NCBI RefSeq assembly: GCF_017901155.1
Contig: NZ_CP072800.1
Span: forward strand, 709,283 to 773,282
DNA: 64,000 nt
Reading direction: 5' to 3'
Source: Candidatus Thiothrix anitrata
GTDB lineage: Bacteria > Pseudomonadota > Gammaproteobacteria > Thiotrichales > Thiotrichaceae
The position numbers were made by a program, and so were the translations under genes. The notes below the pieces were generated by a model. The model was given only the letters and a program-made list of their open reading frames with translations, ran no database searches and was not told the DNA's origin. Positions 30,812 to 40,785 of this stretch are shown here, piece by piece (the stretch's first letter is position 1; each line of letters starts with the position of its first letter).

Positions 30812-32062
30812 ATGACCGCAACCTTCCAAATTCCGCTCGACATTCCCGATGTTCACATACTATCAACCCGTTCTGGTGAAAAGGGTGAATTCATCCTAGA
30901 GGTGGAAAGCAGCCTGAACGCGACGACTTGCCGCCGTTGTGGGCGGGAGATCACGGAGTTTCATGGTTATGATCAACCGATCCTGCTGCGCCACCTGCCG
31001 GTATTTGGGCGTGATGTATGGATAGAAATCCGCCCCAAACGTTACCGTTGCCCTCACTGTGATGATCACCCGACCACAACTCAACGACTAAGCTGGCACG
31101 AACCACGTAGCCCGCACACCAAAGCGTTTGATGCTTGGTTGGTGAGCATGTTGGGTAATTCCACGGTAAGCGATGTTAGCCGCCGTTGCCATGTCGGGCA
31201 TGATGCGGTGGAAGGGGCGGTTAATCGTTGCATCCGTGCCAAGGTGGACTGGGCGGATTACACCCAATTACGCACCTTGGGTATTGACGAGATAGCCCTG
31301 AAGAAAGGTCACAAGGATTTTGTCGCGATCATCACCACCTTGGATAAGAACGACCAAGTTTGTGTACTGGCAATCCTACCCAATCGTCTAAAAGAAACGG
31401 TGGTGACGTTTCTCAACAGCATTCCCGCGCACCTGAAAGCCACGGTAAAGCGCGTTTGCTGCGATATGCATGAAGGTTACAGCAACGCCATCAAGGAAAC
31501 GTTGCCCCATGCGCACATCGTGGTTGACCGTTTCCATGTGGCACAATACTACAACAAGGCGGTGGACAATTTGCGCAAAGAAACGCTGACAACACTCAAG
31601 AAAAACCTTCCAGAGGACATCTACCAACAGTACTGTCAGGGGATGTTATGGCCGTTTCGTCACCATTTCTGGTCGCTGGACGCCGAACAACAAGCACAAG
31701 TCAGCCATTTCTTGGGCTATGCGCCAGAACTGAAACAAGCATGGCTGTTACGTCATGAACTGACGGCAACCTTCATGAAATACCAAACCAAAGCCGAAGC
31801 CAAACAACAATTGGATGCTTGGAAACAGAAAGTGACGGAATCAGGGCTAAGCTGTTTCGATAAATTCCTGACCTTGCTCGAAACTTGGCAAGACAGCATT
31901 ACCAACTATTTTGAAGACCGGCATACGTCGGGTTTTGTCGAAGGCTTGAACAACAAGCTTAAAGTCATCAAACGACGCTGTTATGGCTTGTTGGATGTTA
32001 AACGATTTTTTCAGCAGATTCAGATTGATCTACGCTTTGCGCGAGGACAATCTTTTGCATAA
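30812..32062 (+). CDS. tnp: ISL3-family transposase
   Basis: This 416-residue protein has an N-terminal zinc finger (CRRCG about residue 41, CPHC about 80), then helix-turn-helix and the DDE domain. Likely catalytic residues are Asp in LGIDEIALKKGH (about 158), Asp in VVDRFHV (about 235, after CCDMHEGY) and Glu in SGFVEGLNNKLKVIKRR (about 376). The reading frame is complete, so the element may still be active. Confidence 0.95.
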   Translation: MTATFQIPLDIPDVHILSTRSGEKGEFILEVESSLNATTCRRCGREITEFHGYDQPILLRHLPVFGRDVWIEIRPKRYRCPHCDDHPTTTQRLSWHEPRSPHTKAFDAWLVSMLGNSTVSDVSRRCHVGHDAVEGAVNRCIRAKVDWADYTQLRTLGIDEIALKKGHKDFVAIITTLDKNDQVCVLAILPNRLKETVVTFLNSIPAHLKATVKRVCCDMHEGYSNAIKETLPHAHIVVDRFHVAQYYNKAVDNLRKETLTTLKKNLPEDIYQQYCQGMLWPFRHHFWSLDAEQQAQVSHFLGYAPELKQAWLLRHELTATFMKYQTKAEAKQQLDAWKQKVTESGLSCFDKFLTLLETWQDSITNYFEDRHTSGFVEGLNNKLKVIKRRCYGLLDVKRFFQQIQIDLRFARGQSFA

Positions 32063-32389: not shown

Positions 32390-32881
32390 ATGGCTGATAA
32401 TAGTTCAAACGCACTACCCGCGAATTATGCAGGTACGGTAAGAGTTACTGTACGCGAGCGTGATTACTATGTTCACATGTCTGCACCCATGCCGATGATG
32501 TCGCTTGACGACCTCGAAAAGGCATTGGCAGTAAACCGGCAAATGATTAAAGACTCTCAGGAAAAAATGCGCGAAATGTTCCTGTTGGAAGCGTTCGAGT
32601 ATGCCGCACCTTGGGCTGTCGACTACGAAAGCCCGACGCAAAACGCAATTCAAGCGCACCTCAACATTAGCATGTTGATTCCTTTGATCAACCTTAAGGG
32701 CGGCAAGGCAACTTACGAGAAACCTGAAACCCTGAATGTGCAAACGCGCTTGGAATTAATGCGCAATACAGCGGAAAAAGCCGTATTCATGGATCATCAC
32801 ATGAACAAACACAACACGGTCAATGCCGCGTTTGGTATTACGTTGGTGGTGTTGCTGCTGTTATCTCTCACCCTGATCTGA
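32390..32881 (+). CDS. Tail-anchored membrane protein of unknown function
   Basis: This 163-residue protein is soluble and helical for most of its length and ends with one hydrophobic segment (AAFGITLVVLLLLSLTLI) with no charged tail, like a tail-anchored protein. No family is recognised. Its 3' end overlaps the end of the convergent CheW-like gene by 21 bases. Confidence 0.5.
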   Translation: MADNSSNALPANYAGTVRVTVRERDYYVHMSAPMPMMSLDDLEKALAVNRQMIKDSQEKMREMFLLEAFEYAAPWAVDYESPTQNAIQAHLNISMLIPLINLKGGKATYEKPETLNVQTRLELMRNTAEKAVFMDHHMNKHNTVNAAFGITLVVLLLLSLTLI

Positions 32882-33376
32882 CGCTGCCCGCGTTTGCTCG
32901 GTACTGAGCTGCAAGATTTCCGCCACCACCGCTTCAATTGCAGGCATGTCAGGAATAAAACACAGCAAATGTGAAGCCCGCACCTGCCGCGCCACGTAAG
33001 GGCAACGTTGCACATTGCCGCTGTGATCATTACGCAAGGTGTCCGGCAAAATTTCCAGTGTATTCAAACCACCACGCACCCGCAGGGCAATGAACGGTAA
33101 ACCTGCCATTGGTGAGAGCGTGTGTAAAATTAAGCATTTACCTTCATTGCTGAGGGTTTCCTCTTCTAACATGCACAGTGATTCCAGTGACACCACAGGT
33201 ATTTGACGGTTGCGCCATTGCAACCAGCCTTCCACACCGGGGTGGCTTGAGGAGCTTAATTGATTGCCGTCTACCAGTTCCGCCATGAGATTGAGTGGTA
33301 ACAATAAACTGGCTTTTTGCAGACGCACAATCAGGCATTTAATCGCTGGCAGATGATGATTATTTTCGTTTTTCAT
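32861..33376 (-). CDS. chpC: CheW-like adaptor at the end of the Pil-Chp operon (ChpC-like)
   Basis: This 171-residue protein is a single CheW-like domain (LLPLNLMAELVDG ... WLQWRNRQIPVVSLESL). CheW proteins link receptors to the CheA kinase. Its position after chpA, with a four-base overlap, matches ChpC of the Pseudomonas Pil-Chp system. It is divergent in sequence from the PilI gene of the same operon, consistent with a distinct adaptor role. Confidence 0.7.
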   Translation of the reverse strand: MKNENNHHLPAIKCLIVRLQKASLLLPLNLMAELVDGNQLSSSSHPGVEGWLQWRNRQIPVVSLESLCMLEEETLSNEGKCLILHTLSPMAGLPFIALRVRGGLNTLEILPDTLRNDHSGNVQRCPYVARQVRASHLLCFIPDMPAIEAVVAEILQLSTEQTRAASDQGER

Positions 33377-36300
33377 ACTGAAACGCGCTCCCCGTCGTTC
33401 GCGTGCCCCTGATCCAGGAGATTTTGTAAAGTACTGAGCAGGATTTCATTTTGATAAGGCTTACCAAGAAAGCCGCTGGCTCCTAGTGACATGGCGTGTT
33501 CGCGATGGCGTTGCGCGGTACGTGAGCTGATCATCACCACCGGTAAGCGTTGCCATTGCGGGTCATTACGTAAGTGACCCAGCAATTCAAAACCGTCCAT
33601 GCGTGGCATTTCAATGTCCAGCAATACCACGTCAGGCAGGAATTCACCGATTTTTTCGAGTGCATCCATGCCGTCTTTCGCCGTGCTGACAGTAAACTCT
33701 TGGCTGTTCAGGAATTTTTCGGTAACGCGCCGCACCGTGATGGAATCGTCAACCACCAATACCCGCGCACTTCCGTCGGAGGCATCCAACACAGTAGCCG
33801 TAGTGCTTAAGGCAGGATGTCCCGCATTGACACGACGCGCCAATTCCGCCATATCCGGCACTAGGAACACGCCCCCATCCGGTGATAACGTTGCAGCAGA
33901 ATACAAACGGCAATCTTTGAACAATACGCCCAAAGGCTGCAACACGACTTCACGTCGTCCGTGGATGCCCCCGATGATCCAAGCAATGTTGTATTCTTGC
34001 AGTTTGTAAAACACCACTGGGAACATTTCTTCCGCCACCAGTACCGGTACAGTGGGCGCACCCAACGATTCAGCCAAGGTTTGCAGGGTGTAGCGTTCTT
34101 CCGCGAAAGCCACTTGTGCGACTTCGCTTTGTAAGGCTTTTTCAAGGTCTGCCCCGGAAATACGTGCCAAGCCCTGAATCCCGCTAATCGGTAGCGCAAA
34201 CGTTTGACCTTCCACCTCGGCTAATAACACCGGGTTGACGATCAAGGTGAAGGGCAGGCGCATAATGAATTCCACCCCTTGTTGCGGGCGTGACTCGATT
34301 TGCAGGCTACCGCCCAAAGCTTTGAGTTCCGAATTCACCACATCCATGCCGATACCACGCCCTGCGATTTGGCTGATGCTTTTTGCTGTGGTAAAACCAG
34401 GGCGCAAAATTAACCGATCCAACTCGTTATCCGGCAAGGTATCCTGCGGCTTGATTAAACCCAGTTCCAACCCGCGTTGGCGTAATTGTTTACGATCTAA
34501 ACCACGCCCATCGTCACGGAAACGAATAATGATTTCCGCATCATCACGGCTGACGCTCAGGGTAATGCGCCCGTTACGCGATTTGCCTTGTTGTTCGCGC
34601 TCTTCGGGTGTTTCAATCCCGTGCGAAACGGCGTTACGGATCAGGTGTTCCAACGGTGCGGTCATGTTTTGCAACAGGTTACGGTCGAGTTCGCATTCTT
34701 CACCTTCGACTTCCAGCACCGCTTGCTTACCTAGCTCACCCGCAGTTTGACGGGTCAAACGCCGTAAACGCGGAACCAGCATAGTGAGCGCGACCAAGCG
34801 GGTATCGAGTAAATCTTGCTGAATGTGGCGCGTGGTGCGCATGTCTTCCTGCAAAAGTTGCTCACCCTTGCGCACTTGGGTGGAAAGATCAGCTTCGATA
34901 TTGACTAAATCGTTCAAACTTTCGGCTAATGAGCGTGAAATGCGCTGAATTTCCGCGTATTGATCCATTTCCAGCGCGTCAAACTCCGCACCGCTGCTGT
35001 GAGCAATCGTGCCACTGCGCTGGCTGCGCCCATCGTGAATTTGCGCTTCACTTTCCAGTTCCAAGGTACGTACTTGTTGACGTAAACGTGCCACAGTACG
35101 CCCTAATTCTTCGACATCCACGCCCATGCTGTTGAAATGCTCAGTCATGCGCACTTGCTGGACGTTTAAACCGACAATACGTTCAATGATGTTATCCACA
35201 AACAATGCAGGCAGGCGGATGGTTTCGTGGTTATTGCTGGTGGTGGCTACTTCGTGGGTGGTTGCCTGTGGCTGTTCGGTCGGGTTGGCATTACGCAGCA
35301 CCTGAATGTCTGGCAGGCTATCCGCTTGTTCTGCAAGCACTTGTTCCAGCAAACTGGCAAATTCGAGCGTATCATTACGGGCTGTGAGCCAAGGCGTAGT
35401 TAATACTGGTGGCGGCAACGTGTCGTTATCTGCCGGAGCGATTATTTCAGTAGGCGTTGCCGGAGTAATGATGTCGTGCTCAGTCGGTGCAGGTTTGTTA
35501 CGCGCTTGTTCGGCAACACTGTGTAACTGGTCAATCGCTTGCTGCAAGTTGTCAAGGCTGGCAACATCCGCACCGCTAGCAGGTAAGTGCGCCAATAACG
35601 TTTCAGCATCGTGGCTAATATCAGCAAGATGAGTGAGCTGCGCCATACGTGCGCCACCTTTGAGCGTATGGAACTCGCGTTCCAGTTCGCGCAAGGTATC
35701 TTGGTCGGCAGGGTGTTGCTGCAAATATTGCAGGTGTTGATCCAATGCCCGAATCTGTTCCGGGAACTCTTCCCAGAAAAATTGCCAGATTAGTTGGGTA
35801 TCGGCCTCTTGCTCGGCTTGATCAGGTATCTCATCAACAACTTCAGTGATTTCAATAGCATCAAGGATTTCACTAATTTCCGGTTCACTAGCCGAATCCA
35901 CAATATTGTCAAGATGTTGCGCCAGTGTTAAATCTGCCACTGCCGAACTGGGTTTGCCCGCCATAATCGCTTCGGCTTCCACAATCGCTGCGATAACATC
36001 TGCATCTTTGGTTTGCGCATTTTGGAAAAATACCGGACGTGCCTGCAATGCCTGAATCGCGGCTAACAATTGCGCAGACATGCGGTCATCTGCGGCAAGT
36101 TGCCCACCCAATACGTTATTAAGCAAACTCTCATATGCCCAAGCGAAATCGCCCAACGCAAACGCGCCAGCCATGCGCCCACTGCCCTTGAGGGTATGGA
36201 AGCCCCGCCGAATTTCACCCAATAAACCACGGTCGTTACGCGCTTGATCCCACTGCGGGTAAAGCTCAGCTAACGAAGCAATGATCTCACTCACCTCTTC

Positions 36301-36450
36301 CGTGAAAATCTCATAAATATCCTCCCCCAATACCTCACGCAGACTGGAAGACGGGGGAGAATCCAATGTTTCTTGAGTAAGCGTGATGCTGGGTTCCACC
36401 ACCAATGGGGGGTCGGGCAACGGCGTAGGCAATGGCTCCGCCGGAAGCAC
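33373..36450 (-). CDS. chpA: ChpA-type chemosensory histidine kinase, C-terminal part after a frameshift
   Basis: This 1025-codon frame carries two Hpt domains (HTLKGSGRMAGAF about residue 88, HTLKGGARMAQL about 262), the CheA dimer/HATPase core (HLIRNAVSHGIETPEEREQQ about 615, RDDGRGLDRK, GRGIGMDVV), a CheW domain and a C-terminal receiver (LLDIEMPRMDG, phospho-Asp). The GTG at 36450 is only where the track can begin. The same frame runs back without a stop to an A10 tract at 36537-36546, where it joins the N-terminal part by a -1 shift, giving one protein of about 1636 residues. It controls twitching motility and cAMP-linked behaviour through type IV pili. Confidence 0.88.
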   Translation of the reverse strand: MLPAEPLPTPLPDPPLVVEPSITLTQETLDSPPSSSLREVLGEDIYEIFTEEVSEIIASLAELYPQWDQARNDRGLLGEIRRGFHTLKGSGRMAGAFALGDFAWAYESLLNNVLGGQLAADDRMSAQLLAAIQALQARPVFFQNAQTKDADVIAAIVEAEAIMAGKPSSAVADLTLAQHLDNIVDSASEPEISEILDAIEITEVVDEIPDQAEQEADTQLIWQFFWEEFPEQIRALDQHLQYLQQHPADQDTLRELEREFHTLKGGARMAQLTHLADISHDAETLLAHLPASGADVASLDNLQQAIDQLHSVAEQARNKPAPTEHDIITPATPTEIIAPADNDTLPPPVLTTPWLTARNDTLEFASLLEQVLAEQADSLPDIQVLRNANPTEQPQATTHEVATTSNNHETIRLPALFVDNIIERIVGLNVQQVRMTEHFNSMGVDVEELGRTVARLRQQVRTLELESEAQIHDGRSQRSGTIAHSSGAEFDALEMDQYAEIQRISRSLAESLNDLVNIEADLSTQVRKGEQLLQEDMRTTRHIQQDLLDTRLVALTMLVPRLRRLTRQTAGELGKQAVLEVEGEECELDRNLLQNMTAPLEHLIRNAVSHGIETPEEREQQGKSRNGRITLSVSRDDAEIIIRFRDDGRGLDRKQLRQRGLELGLIKPQDTLPDNELDRLILRPGFTTAKSISQIAGRGIGMDVVNSELKALGGSLQIESRPQQGVEFIMRLPFTLIVNPVLLAEVEGQTFALPISGIQGLARISGADLEKALQSEVAQVAFAEERYTLQTLAESLGAPTVPVLVAEEMFPVVFYKLQEYNIAWIIGGIHGRREVVLQPLGVLFKDCRLYSAATLSPDGGVFLVPDMAELARRVNAGHPALSTTATVLDASDGSARVLVVDDSITVRRVTEKFLNSQEFTVSTAKDGMDALEKIGEFLPDVVLLDIEMPRMDGFELLGHLRNDPQWQRLPVVMISSRTAQRHREHAMSLGASGFLGKPYQNEILLSTLQNLLDQGHANDGERVSV

Positions 36451-36479
36451 GGGTGGCGTTACCTGAACCGTTGCCGGTG

Positions 36480-38282
36480 TTAGCTCCTGGGTTGACGCAA
36501 GCGTTGGTAAAGCGTCGGTGTAACGTGATGCTTCGCTTTTTTTTTTGCCTCGACTTTTTGTGTCAGAGCATCCAAATCAAGGTTGTCCAGCAAGCTGACT
36601 TGGCTGTAGTGATCCAATTCAACCAGCTTCTCATAGCCCGTTGGTAGCAAACTGAGGTAATCCTCGTCTTGCAAACGTGCCGACAAGGTGGCTTCTGTTA
36701 AGGTCAAAACGTCGGCGAACGTTGCTAACTCTTCGGGTGACGGCTGGCGTTGGCGGGCGAGTAAATCCTCTCGCAGGTAGCGCAATGAAGTATCTACCAG
36801 TGGCAACAGTTCTTGTGCTTCCATCACATTGAGTGCACCGCTGATACTTTCCAGCGAGGTGATAACTTCCTCAAGGTAATAAAACGCCCAACCTTCCTTG
36901 TAGAAAGCAATGATGCGTGTCTGCGCCTTATTGAGTTCAGTTTGTGCCGTTTGCATGAGACTGCGTGCACTGCCGGGGTCTTGGCCTTCGTGTTCGGAAT
37001 TGAATACCACGTCGGTAGTATCGAAACCGCTATGTGCATACTCTTCCAATACCTTTTCTAAACGCACGTAATGGGTACTGATATGCAGCAAATCGTCCAG
37101 TGTTTGCTCTTCCTCGCGTTCTTTCTTGCCTATCAATGCAGCACCTAGCAAGCGCGTTAATTCCGCAGCTCGCCCAAGGCCAATCATGCTTAATGTGCCA
37201 GCGAGGTGATTGGTTTTATTGGCAAGTTTATCCAGCAACTCCGGCTGACGCACTTCGTCCTGCATTCCTTCCAAAATAGCTTGTAAGCCTTTGAGTTCCT
37301 CAATCACGGAACGCGCCACTGCGTGCCACAAATCACGCCCTGGTGTAGCGTAATGTTGACGTAACTGCTCCAGCGTTTCGCCTTGTGGTAAATACAAATC
37401 CAAGTGGTAGGCCGCTTTTACCTGATCGGTTTGTGTACTGCCCGACTCGGCAAGCCCAATGTAATACAGTAAGTTTTTGAGCAACTCATCCGGCAAACTG
37501 CGCTCAAAACTGGCTTCACCGATTTCACCAAAACGACGAATTTCGCGTTCAATTCGCCCCATTAACATTTTGATTGCAACACTATGCTCTAAACGCCCCT
37601 GCTCAAGTGCTTCACTCAGTGCGCTGGTAATCCACCACAAGGCACGTAAACGTTGCGTTTCACTCAACACCAATAAATTGTTGGAAACCTTAGCCGTTGC
37701 TTGCAACATGCGGGGTGCGTATTCGCCTTTGAACCACCCCAACAACGCTTTCTGGAAATAAAAGCGCAGTTTGGTCGTCACTTGTTGCAACCGGTCAGGG
37801 GTCAGGCTGATGAATTCATCCGTGCCGATTTGCTGGTTGTTAGCGTGTCCCGCTTCCGGTAAAAACACCAAATGCTCGGACAATAACCCAGCATCACGCG
37901 CTGCCCGCAAGTTATTCAGGGTCGGTAACACCACGACAGGCAAATCGGCATAACCGTCCTGTAAATGCTTCAGGTATTCGGATAATTGCAGCAAGCCTTC
38001 CGCAGCAGCTTCCTGCGCGGCACTGACATTACTGACCTTGTGTTGAATGAGCGCGTCAAATAATGCCACCAGCTCTTTGGCTAGCATATTCGCACCGTCT
38101 GCACCCAATATATCCAATGCCCCCCAAATTTGGCGACAAGCCTCACGGCATGAACTGAGTTCCCCACCATCAGTGGACTGGGTGTATTGGGCAAACAATT
38201 CGCGTGCCTGCCCAATCGCCGGTTCCAGCTCACCAATGATCCAGCCAAGACGGCTTGCTAAACTTGATTTATCCGAAATCAT
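36480..38282 (-). CDS. chpA: ChpA-type chemosensory kinase, N-terminal part before a frameshift
   Basis: These 600 codons encode the helical N-terminal region of ChpA. It has a partial Hpt-like helix bundle (LAGTLSMIGLGRAAEL about residue 365) but not a standard HTLKGS motif, as in the long FimL-like N-terminus of PilL/ChpA. The frame reads through ten A (GCA AAA AAA AAA GCG) and stops 18 codons later. The alternative -1 frame from the same tract stays open into the rest of ChpA. The last 18 residues (from AKHHV) are therefore probably not part of the working protein unless the stop is used deliberately. It starts 14 bases after pilJ. Confidence 0.85.
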   Translation of the reverse strand: MISDKSSLASRLGWIIGELEPAIGQARELFAQYTQSTDGGELSSCREACRQIWGALDILGADGANMLAKELVALFDALIQHKVSNVSAAQEAAAEGLLQLSEYLKHLQDGYADLPVVVLPTLNNLRAARDAGLLSEHLVFLPEAGHANNQQIGTDEFISLTPDRLQQVTTKLRFYFQKALLGWFKGEYAPRMLQATAKVSNNLLVLSETQRLRALWWITSALSEALEQGRLEHSVAIKMLMGRIEREIRRFGEIGEASFERSLPDELLKNLLYYIGLAESGSTQTDQVKAAYHLDLYLPQGETLEQLRQHYATPGRDLWHAVARSVIEELKGLQAILEGMQDEVRQPELLDKLANKTNHLAGTLSMIGLGRAAELTRLLGAALIGKKEREEEQTLDDLLHISTHYVRLEKVLEEYAHSGFDTTDVVFNSEHEGQDPGSARSLMQTAQTELNKAQTRIIAFYKEGWAFYYLEEVITSLESISGALNVMEAQELLPLVDTSLRYLREDLLARQRQPSPEELATFADVLTLTEATLSARLQDEDYLSLLPTGYEKLVELDHYSQVSLLDNLDLDALTQKVEAKKKAKHHVTPTLYQRLRQPRS

Positions 38283-38295
38283 ATGTCACCTGTCG

Positions 38296-39423
38296 TTATC
38301 TTTTTTCTTCTGCCAGATTGAAGCCCGAAATGGCAGCACGTAAGTCCATCGCGGTTGCATTCAGGTTCGCCACAAGGCTGCGGGTTTCCTGACTGTATTG
38401 CGCGGTTTGTAACGTGGTTTCCTGAATGGCCTGCATGGTAGAGCTGACTTGCCCCGCCATGTCGGTCTGTTTACCGGCTGCTTCGGAAATGTTCCCGATT
38501 AACCGTACCAGTCCGATGGTCACGTTTTCTACTTCGTCGAGCGCGTCCCCTGCGGCTCCGGCATTGCGTGCCCCATCCACCACTTTCGCGGTGGTTTCTT
38601 CCATCGAAGCCATGACTTCGTGCGTATCTGCTTGCATGGTGCGAATCAGTACATCAATTTTGCGTGAAGCCCCAGCAGCCTGTTGCGCTAACTGCTGCAT
38701 TTCATCCGCCAACCGCCGGAATCCGCCGCTATTGCCAGTAGATGTCCCCGTGGTGGTTTGAATTGAGGCATTTAACGCCAGAATATTGGTTTGTTCGGCA
38801 ATCTCATTCATCAAGCGCACAATGTCGCCGACTTCCTGTGAGCTTTCCCCTAAACGTTTCAAGCGTTTGGATGTCGCCTGAATTTGTTCGCGGATAGCCA
38901 CAATGTCTTCAATTGTCGCACGTACCGTTTTTGCCCCCGCTTGGGAAATTTCCTGCGATTTGCGTGCCACATCTGCTGAGCTGGAAGCATTGCGCGACAC
39001 CTTTTGAATGGATTGCGTCATAGTGGCAATCGCCGTACTCGCAACAGCAATATCACGTGCCTGCCGCGTACTAGACTCGGCTAATTGGTTAATGCGCCCG
39101 TCCGCATCTTGCGCAAAGCGGGTTAAGCGATGCGAAGTAGCATCCATCCGTACCACCAAGTTACGTAAAGCATCCACCGCGTAATTGACCGCATCTGCAA
39201 TAGCACCGGTTACGTCTTCCGACACCGTAGCACGCATGGTCAAATCACCATCAGCTAACGAACCCATTTCGTCCAGCAGGCGCATAATCGCTTTTTGTTG
39301 TTGTTGGCTGCCGCCTTTTGCCTGTAAGCGGGTTTCGCGTTGTAATCGTGCCAATAAAATAGCCAATATCAACACCAGAACTAACAAGCCACCACTCAGT
39401 AATTGCCAGGTTAATAACGTCAT
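38296..39423 (-). CDS. pilJ: Methyl-accepting chemotaxis protein, short PilJ-like receptor
   Basis: This 375-residue protein has a single N-terminal membrane helix (about residues 6-25), a HAMP-like region (ADGDLTMRATV about 57) and a cytoplasmic signalling domain with the hairpin tip EIAEQTNILALNASIQT (about 210). Canonical PilJ is about 680 residues with two helices and a periplasmic sensor pair. Here the sensor is gone, so the receptor is either regulated from inside or fed by a partner. Overlap with pilI (four bases) and position before chpA confirm operon membership. Confidence 0.85.
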   Translation of the reverse strand: MTLLTWQLLSGGLLVLVLILAILLARLQRETRLQAKGGSQQQQKAIMRLLDEMGSLADGDLTMRATVSEDVTGAIADAVNYAVDALRNLVVRMDATSHRLTRFAQDADGRINQLAESSTRQARDIAVASTAIATMTQSIQKVSRNASSSADVARKSQEISQAGAKTVRATIEDIVAIREQIQATSKRLKRLGESSQEVGDIVRLMNEIAEQTNILALNASIQTTTGTSTGNSGGFRRLADEMQQLAQQAAGASRKIDVLIRTMQADTHEVMASMEETTAKVVDGARNAGAAGDALDEVENVTIGLVRLIGNISEAAGKQTDMAGQVSSTMQAIQETTLQTAQYSQETRSLVANLNATAMDLRAAISGFNLAEEKR

Positions 39424-39953
39424 GTGCGTACCTCCCCGGTTTCCAACGTGCTAATCAGTTTTTGTGCATCGAGTACCGCGACTGTTTCGCCTTCCAGTGC
39501 CAGCCATTGGCGCACGTATTGCAGCCAAGTGCCATCAAAATGTGCTGGCATCGGGGCTTCTTGCGTGTCTGACCAAATATGACGTACCCCATCAAAAGCC
39601 GTCACTTGCAGCCCGAACCATTCTTGTTTACCGCGCATTACAAATACCCGTGCGGAAGCCCCCGGTGCTTTGCGTTCACCGCGCAGCAGGTTTGCCATAT
39701 CCACCAATGTCAGTAATTGCGCCCGAAAATATGCCACACCCAAGACCCATGCCGGTACGTTTCGGGCTAAAGAGACTGAACTGGGTTGCATGACCTCTTC
39801 TACCTGTTCACAGGGGATCAGACAAACCAGCGTGCCTACCTGAACTTTAAATCCAGACCATTCCTGCAATTCCATCTCATGGCTTTGTTGAGTCAGGCGT
39901 TTCTTCTCGCGCAACAATGCTAACCCCGCAAGCAATTCATACGGATTAGCCAT
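39420..39953 (-). CDS. pilI: CheW-like adaptor PilI
   Basis: This 177-residue protein is a CheW domain (VGTLVCLIPCEQVEEVMQ ... WVLGVAYFRAQLLTLVDM). It connects PilJ to ChpA. It overlaps pilH by eight bases and pilJ by four, the usual order pilG-pilH-pilI-pilJ. Confidence 0.88.
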   Translation of the reverse strand: MANPYELLAGLALLREKKRLTQQSHEMELQEWSGFKVQVGTLVCLIPCEQVEEVMQPSSVSLARNVPAWVLGVAYFRAQLLTLVDMANLLRGERKAPGASARVFVMRGKQEWFGLQVTAFDGVRHIWSDTQEAPMPAHFDGTWLQYVRQWLALEGETVAVLDAQKLISTLETGEVRT

Positions 39954-40332
39954 GTCGACCTTTCCTTAATACAAATTGCGCAATGGTATCGAGCAATAAA
40001 TTGGCAGAAACCGGTTTCACTAGGTAAGCCTTCGCCCCCTGACGCATTGCCCACAAACGGTCGGTATCAGCCGATTTTGAACTGCATACAATGATTGGAA
40101 TATGCGCAGTTTCGGCGGCACGGGTCAGTTCACGGGTTGCCTGAAAACCATTAACCAAGGGCATTACCACGTCCATCAAAATCACGTCGGGCTGACGTGC
40201 TTTCGCGACTTGGATACCCTCCTGACCATTGCAGGCCACGCTAACGCTGTACCCGTGTTTTTCCAGCAATAAGGTAAACATGCGGGTTTCAGCTAACGAG
40301 TCATCAATGATCAGCACATGCGGTGCGCTCAT
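39946..40332 (-). CDS. pilH: Response regulator PilH (CheY-like)
   Basis: This 128-residue stand-alone receiver has acidic pair DD (LIIDDS), phospho-Asp in LMDVVMPLVNG (about residue 52), Ser in VCSSKSADT and Lys in LVKPVS. PilH is phosphorylated by ChpA and modulates pilus retraction. It lies six bases after pilG. Confidence 0.88.
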   Translation of the reverse strand: MSAPHVLIIDDSLAETRMFTLLLEKHGYSVSVACNGQEGIQVAKARQPDVILMDVVMPLVNGFQATRELTRAAETAHIPIIVCSSKSADTDRLWAMRQGAKAYLVKPVSANLLLDTIAQFVLRKGRHG

Positions 40333-40338
40333 ACACAG

Positions 40339-40785
40339 TTATCCTTCCGGCAAGGCGGCGGGAGCAGCGGTGTTGAGCTTGACATGCGTTTGGATAGCAG
40401 ACAGCAAATCCTGCTTGGTAAAGGGCTTGGTAAGGTATTTATCCGAACCTGCCAAGCGTCCGCGTGCCATGTCAAAAATGCTGTCCTTGCTGGAAAGCAT
40501 AATCACCGGAATATCACGATATTGGCGGTTTGCCTTGATCAGGGCACAGGTTTGATAACCATCCAAGCGCGGCATCATAATATCCACGAAAATGACATCC
40601 GGCTTGAACGAGGCAATTTTCGCGAGGGATTCAAAGCCATCGCTGGCAGTCACCACCCAGCAGCCCTGCTCACCGAGGAGCACTTCTGCGGTGCGCAGGA
40701 TGGTCTTACTGTCATCAACAACGACAACCTTAAGACCGCTTAAATCCAGTTCGGATATAGTAGTTTGAGAATCGGAGGTATTCAC
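40339..40785 (-). CDS. pilG: Response regulator PilG (CheY-like)
   Basis: This 148-residue receiver has VVVDDSKTILRTAE and phospho-Asp in FVDIMMPRLDG, followed by LSSKDSIFDMARG and TKPFTK, the typical PilG sequence. PilG promotes pilus extension and adenylate cyclase activity in Pseudomonas. It is the first gene of the minus-strand operon pilG-H-I-J-chpA-chpC; pilK and chpB (methylation enzymes) are absent. The 171 bases upstream hold the promoter, but I see no clear consensus. Confidence 0.88.
   Translation of the reverse strand: MNTSDSQTTISELDLSGLKVVVVDDSKTILRTAEVLLGEQGCWVVTASDGFESLAKIASFKPDVIFVDIMMPRLDGYQTCALIKANRQYRDIPVIMLSSKDSIFDMARGRLAGSDKYLTKPFTKQDLLSAIQTHVKLNTAAPAALPEG

Follow-up and report, generated by a model that had tools for sequence, protein, structure and literature searches.

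dnaX is the textbook slippage gene. In Escherichia coli its recoding elements are an upstream Shine-Dalgarno-like site, the heptamer A_AAA_AAG and a downstream stem-loop (PMC3711429); transcriptional slippage has been reported on long unaided A runs, in Thermus dnaX (PMC1088944) and in dnaX genes carrying A10 (PMC3711429). In type IV pilus signalling FimL is homologous to the N-terminus of ChpA, and PilG is positioned by both proteins (PMC10519157, PMC9596432). A short homologue of FimV co-precipitates with FimL in Acinetobacter baylyi, where FimL, PilG and FimV each require the others for localization (PMC9596432).

The chpA gene of Candidatus Thiothrix anitrata, which resides in the window (the whole stretch of 64,000 nucleotides analysed here), resembles each of these systems in part. 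It shares a long unaided A run with Thermus thermophilus dnaX, where slippage at A9 is transcriptional, and its downstream ORF would require a slip, as in the two-ORF A10 dnaX genes (PMC3711429). Yet dnaX, unlike chpA, is a replication clamp-loader gene, and slipping yields the short product in Thermus, whereas it would yield the long one in chpA. E. coli dnaX likewise is another gene, the -1 product of chpA being the long one, and the chpA of the window lacks both of its stimulators. In mxiE-type transcriptional slippage, where an inserted nucleotide joins two ORFs, a homopolymer slip is similarly needed for the longer protein, but the gene is a different one and the run is made of U (PMC1088944). 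The predicted short product of chpA shares the FimL/ChpA N-terminal module with FimL and ChpA of Pseudomonas aeruginosa and Acinetobacter. In those bacteria each protein has its own gene; here both would come from a single one. Programmed slippage is already known, and dnaX exhibits both levels of it, but we rate its setting in a CheA-type kinase as unusual. Among the open-access papers surveyed, none was found to link slippage with chpA, a CheA-type kinase or twitching control. To our knowledge, few cellular bacterial genes need a -1 event for their long product.

The chpA junction in Thiothrix and its relatives

The source genome is a single contig of 3.55 Mb. Its chpA belongs to a minus-strand Pil-Chp cluster, with the gene order pilG-, pilH-, pilI-, pilJ-, chpA- and chpC-like (Table 1), and the ChpA domain set (Hpt domains, HATPase_c, CheW, receiver) adjoins pilG-H-I-J. 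A gene for an ISL3-family transposase lies upstream of the cluster (window 30812-32062, plus strand).

Table 1. Features of the Pil-Chp cluster and of the chpA junction in the window
Feature	Position in window	Strand	Remarks
pilG-like response regulator	40339..40785	-	
pilH-like response regulator	39946..40332	-	
pilI-like ORF	39420..39953	-	named by gene order; no NCBIfam match
pilJ-like methyl-accepting chemotaxis protein	38296..39423	-	
chpA 0-frame ORF, 600 aa: FimL-like N-terminal module + 18-residue tail (predicted short product)	36480..38282	-	
A10 slippery run in chpA, 0 frame GCA AAA AAA AAA GCG	36537..36546	-	sequence
Conserved 0-frame tail AKHHVTPTLYQRLRQPRS, stop TAA, overlaps -1 frame	36480..36536	-	
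chpA -1 frame, 1054 codons: linker, two Hpt, HATPase_c, CheW, receiver (kinase part, predicted long product)	33373..36537	-	
CheW-domain protein, chpC-like, overlaps chpA end	32861..33376	-	

On the minus strand the junction reads GTC GAG GCA AAA AAA AAA GCG AAG CAT. The 0 frame ends 18 codons past the A10 run; the -1 frame re-reads the last A of the run and then stays open for 1054 codons, the predicted fusion measuring 582 + 1054 = 1636 aa. Re-reading the sequence proved the preliminary description exact as to the run, the stop 18 codons on and the 1054-codon -1 frame. That description had offered three readings, namely an assembly or indel error, a true mutation, and slippage on A10 making a short protein along with full ChpA, and had asked whether relatives keep the A run.

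The family was surveyed by a protein search for the chpA N-terminal part; the loci were fetched, and each junction was read. The N-terminal part was found in 32 of 63 family genomes, including 16/16 of Thiothrix (g1), the other genera having the gene being g3, g6, g7 and g8. The 0 frame stops at a similar place in 32/32 (597-650 codons, stop to stop). The A run is indeed kept: in 30 of the 32 loci a slippery run (A10, A9, A7 or A_AAA_AAG) precedes a -1 frame open into the kinase, the exceptions being G009, in which the run is masked by N, and G057, in which the gene is separated into two ORFs. In Thiothrix A10 is found at the same codon in 15 of 16 genomes, the sixteenth being G009, and the run length is 10 in every readable genome, never 9 or 11. 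G057 excepted, chpA of g6, g7 and g8 carries A9 or A10. The g6 junction is A10; g7 and g8 feature NNT AAA AAA AAA GC, with A9 (A10 in one), in a codon phase other than that of Thiothrix but with an equal -1 relation. Since the -1 frame stop of g7 and g8 directly abuts the run, the shift would have to happen on the run. The g3 junction is A_AAA_AAG in four loci and A_AAA_AAA in one. All A9-A10 members contain an in-frame A_AAA_AAA heptamer.

In 31/32 loci the -1 frame, followed from the run, meets no stop before the first catalytic Hpt motif (HxxKG). The kinase frame spans about 1070-1250 open codons across the family, with all domains present, and within the genus nearly every genome shows 61-90% identity in the kinase part across some 800 residues. 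Extra stops in the kinase part were found in two MAGs, G009 (with N in the run) and G052; they are taken as sequence errors or decay, and leave the overall pattern unchanged.

Homopolymers of ten are error-prone, and an assembly or sequencing error might have produced the split. The identical arrangement in 15 further Thiothrix and in four other genera with differing run lengths leaves this explanation a negligible probability: a split conserved across the family is not an error. The formally broken frame could also denote a true inactivating mutation, chpA being a pseudogene, but the length, domain content and identity of the kinase frame make this hardly conceivable. Both options were excluded, as the same -1 split recurs in 16/16 Thiothrix genomes and in five genera of the family, isolates and MAGs alike. 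A10 is moreover prone to replication slippage (PMC3711429), and chpA might be a phase-variable contingency locus, in which changes in run length switch ChpA on and off. The run, however, is always 10 in readable Thiothrix (one genome per species), the A9 of g7 and g8 lies in another codon phase with the same -1 relation, and g3 combines A6G or A7 with other signals. Phase variation is on this evidence very improbable.

Outside the family, almost every complete locus of the class encodes ChpA in a single frame, about 1500-2330 codons long; G126 (1228 aa) and some matches that were weak or lay at contig edges were set aside in this check. In a protein tree the split chpA genes form one group apart from the unsplit ChpA of other families (support 100/100, long branches limiting the reading). 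Short chpA frames found outside the family (G138, G165, G079, G148, G064) were rejected as splits, being located at contig ends. In G094, a member of another family, chpA truly consists of two ORFs, N-module and kinase. In G123 (L105) the chpA frame breaks in EVAEP-coding repeats between the N-module and the kinase, reflecting either assembly error or repeat-length variation.

The kinase part might instead have its own start, the two frames being overlapping genes expressed by coupled or internal initiation without any slip. All start codons of the -1 frame between the run and the Hpt were listed. GTG or TTG codons occur there in some genomes, the window among them, and separate ORFs exist in G057 and, outside the family, in G094. 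Yet in six genomes (G006, G010, G003, G060, G052 and G050) the 70-100 codons of the -1 frame that separate the run from the first HxxKG include no ATG, GTG or TTG, so that internal initiation at a standard start cannot yield an intact kinase there. No Shine-Dalgarno-like site was found at the GTG/TTG codons of the window, and initiation at an own start leaves unexplained both the invariance of the A run and a -1 frame open right back to it. We consider this alternative quite unlikely. In G057 (L093), within the family, the run is interrupted, the kinase part is an ORF of its own with an ATG, and the short protein retains its tail, ending STLYQKLRNQSLLQHA; this genome may be a case in which slippage was naturally dispensed with and both products were retained.

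The reading which we favour, with a probability of about 0.9 and on comparative grounds, is that in Thiothrix and its family a programmed -1 event lets a single gene yield both ChpA and a FimL-like protein. The third option of the preliminary description, slippage on A10, is strongly supported by the relatives. Standard decoding would give a 600-aa protein, made of a non-catalytic N-terminal module (degenerate Hpt) and a short conserved tail, while at the A run some events would move decoding into the -1 frame, and give a ChpA kinase of roughly 1640 aa. In Thiothrix RNA polymerase would slip on A10 without helpers or, alternatively, the ribosome would slip unaided on A_AAA_AAA. The short product may act like a FimL scaffold, holding PilG near FimV and the pilus machine, and scaffold and kinase would be made from one gene in a set ratio.

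Selection at the overlap and nature of the short product

In the whole 3.55 Mb genome A10 runs are three, one intergenic, one in dnaX and one in chpA, and usually number 3-6 per genome in other Thiothrix. Given this rarity, and the location at the same codon in 15/15 readable Thiothrix, chance is a poor account of the run. The ten A and the following GC show zero variation among the 14 Thiothrix sequences compared, in which flanking codons vary. The run is invariant in Thiothrix, yet synonymous codons are available within it, and the frequency of such a run expected from the peptide A-K-K-K and the codon use of this gene is about 6%. It is probably maintained by selection.

Past the run, variation by 0-frame codon position amounts to 0.80/0.48/1.23 bits, ordinary upstream coding sequence giving 0.84/0.52/1.22. 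Pairwise identity over the 14 codons past the run is 0.60 in the 0 frame versus 0.39 in the -1 frame. In Thiothrix position 3 is more variable than position 2 (p = 0.0008), as it is when g7 and g8 are added (p = 0.0012), the p-value for g7 and g8 alone being 0.08; all these values are optimistic, since the sequences are related. A tail core, approximately [TSN]-L-[YLF]-x-[RK]-[LFMIV]-R, is common to g1, g7 and g8. As the 0-frame tail (TLYQRLR) is conserved, and the overlapping -1 linker is not, both products look functional, the tail of the short one being under selection.

Profile comparison aligns the short product to FimL at probability 100 along 515 columns, spanning the whole ChpA N-module; the reference profile combined two FimL-like proteins that stand alone with the N-module separated in G094. 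No Pfam domain, Hpt included, scored above cut-off in the short product which, as is typical of FimL, has no catalytic kinase or active Hpt domain. Its weak AlphaFold model (mean pLDDT 62, six sequences) shows no more than faint matches to CheA P1 (Hpt) domains. FimL is also defined by a gene apart from chpA, and every family genome has a single FimL/ChpA-N locus. Separate fimL genes are rare in the class, however, and most Gammaproteobacteria with ChpA are devoid of one, hence their lack in the family proves little. The idea that fimL is common elsewhere but was lost here was dropped on the same ground. The TLYQRLR tail is absent from the stand-alone FimL proteins examined. Proteins with the FimV C-terminal domain were found in 16/16 Thiothrix, one being a large FimV, the second a protein of about 350-430 codons. 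In the source genome the corresponding loci map at G000:C1:3466701-3466829 and G000:C1:928345-928467, and the shorter Thiothrix protein is similar in size to the truncated FimV of Acinetobacter. We infer that the short product may be the FimL-like scaffold of this system.

RNA polymerase or ribosome

The g3 genus is distinctive. Purines resembling a Shine-Dalgarno site are found upstream of the run in 5/5 loci, ending about 11-16 nt away (background 0.17 per window), and a stem-loop begins about 6 nt downstream of the heptamer (CCGCCAGAA...TTCTGGCGG); its folding energy is -10.9 to -17.9 kcal/mol, the background value for the gene being -6.9 +/- 3.1. Heptamer, upstream site and stem-loop occur together in 5/5 loci. 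One pair of the stem differs on both sides in G033 (C-G to G-C) and another persists as G-U, five sequences being too small a set for covariation to be decisive. E. coli dnaX and g3 chpA thus have three identical elements, in identical order and at similar spacing, and the g3 shift is most likely a ribosomal frameshift of the dnaX type.

Neither a consistent upstream purine site nor a consistent downstream stem-loop was found in g1, g6, g7 and g8, and in g1 the gene shows less structure downstream of the run than elsewhere. The chpA of the window has an in-frame X_XXY_YYZ heptamer (A_AAA_AAA inside A10), but upstream it has only a GAGG right next to the run, and no stem reached significance (z -1.5 and -0.4). 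In sequence, Thiothrix chpA has the makeup of Thermus dnaX, namely a conserved junction run of at least about nine A that lacks ribosomal stimulators. Since long unaided runs are the reported transcriptional form, we incline to the view that the Thiothrix shift is mainly transcriptional, being due to RNA polymerase slippage.

The Thiothrix shift could instead be ribosomal, and take place on the A_AAA_AAA inside A10. This heptamer is in frame in every A9-A10 member, and the g3 relatives bear a ribosomal-type signal. The lack of a consistent upstream site and the unusually little downstream structure in g1, g6, g7 and g8 speak against it, as do the reports of transcriptional slippage on unaided runs of nine or more (PMC1088944, PMC3711429). 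Ribosomal slippage in Thiothrix is accordingly the less probable alternative, though a serious one. If RNA polymerase slips in Thiothrix and the ribosome in g3, one family would use two readout levels for the same output. We regard as an even bet the broader scenario in which slippage sets the ratio of FimL-like scaffold to kinase, relatives have swapped the level (RNA polymerase or ribosome) and kept the output, and TLYQRLR, present in the short form alone, serves to dock it on a pilus or polarity protein.

Significance and other A10 genes

If the interpretation is correct, chpA would be a -1-dependent signalling kinase retained from a time before the family split into its genera, the short product also being selected. 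This would explain why chpA looks like a pseudogene in all Thiothrix genomes, and hints at what the separable ChpA N-module may be used for. As with dnaX, ribosomal and transcriptional routes to one output could be compared among relatives.

The only other coding A10 of the source genome resides in dnaX, and reads GAG AAAAAAAAAA TTG (L039:1549-1558; G000:C1:274348-274357). The same dnaX motif occurs in at least seven other Thiothrix genomes; in the source strain an apparent palindromic repeat insertion is found just downstream of it. In at least five Thiothrix genomes (centre of L111, L115, L117, L122, L123) a third gene, for a hydrolase-like protein whose N-terminal part is Pro/Ala-rich, includes GA(A/C)GAAAAAAAAAATGA. 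Here a -1 slip would meet a TGA at once, and lead to a product without the hydrolase part.
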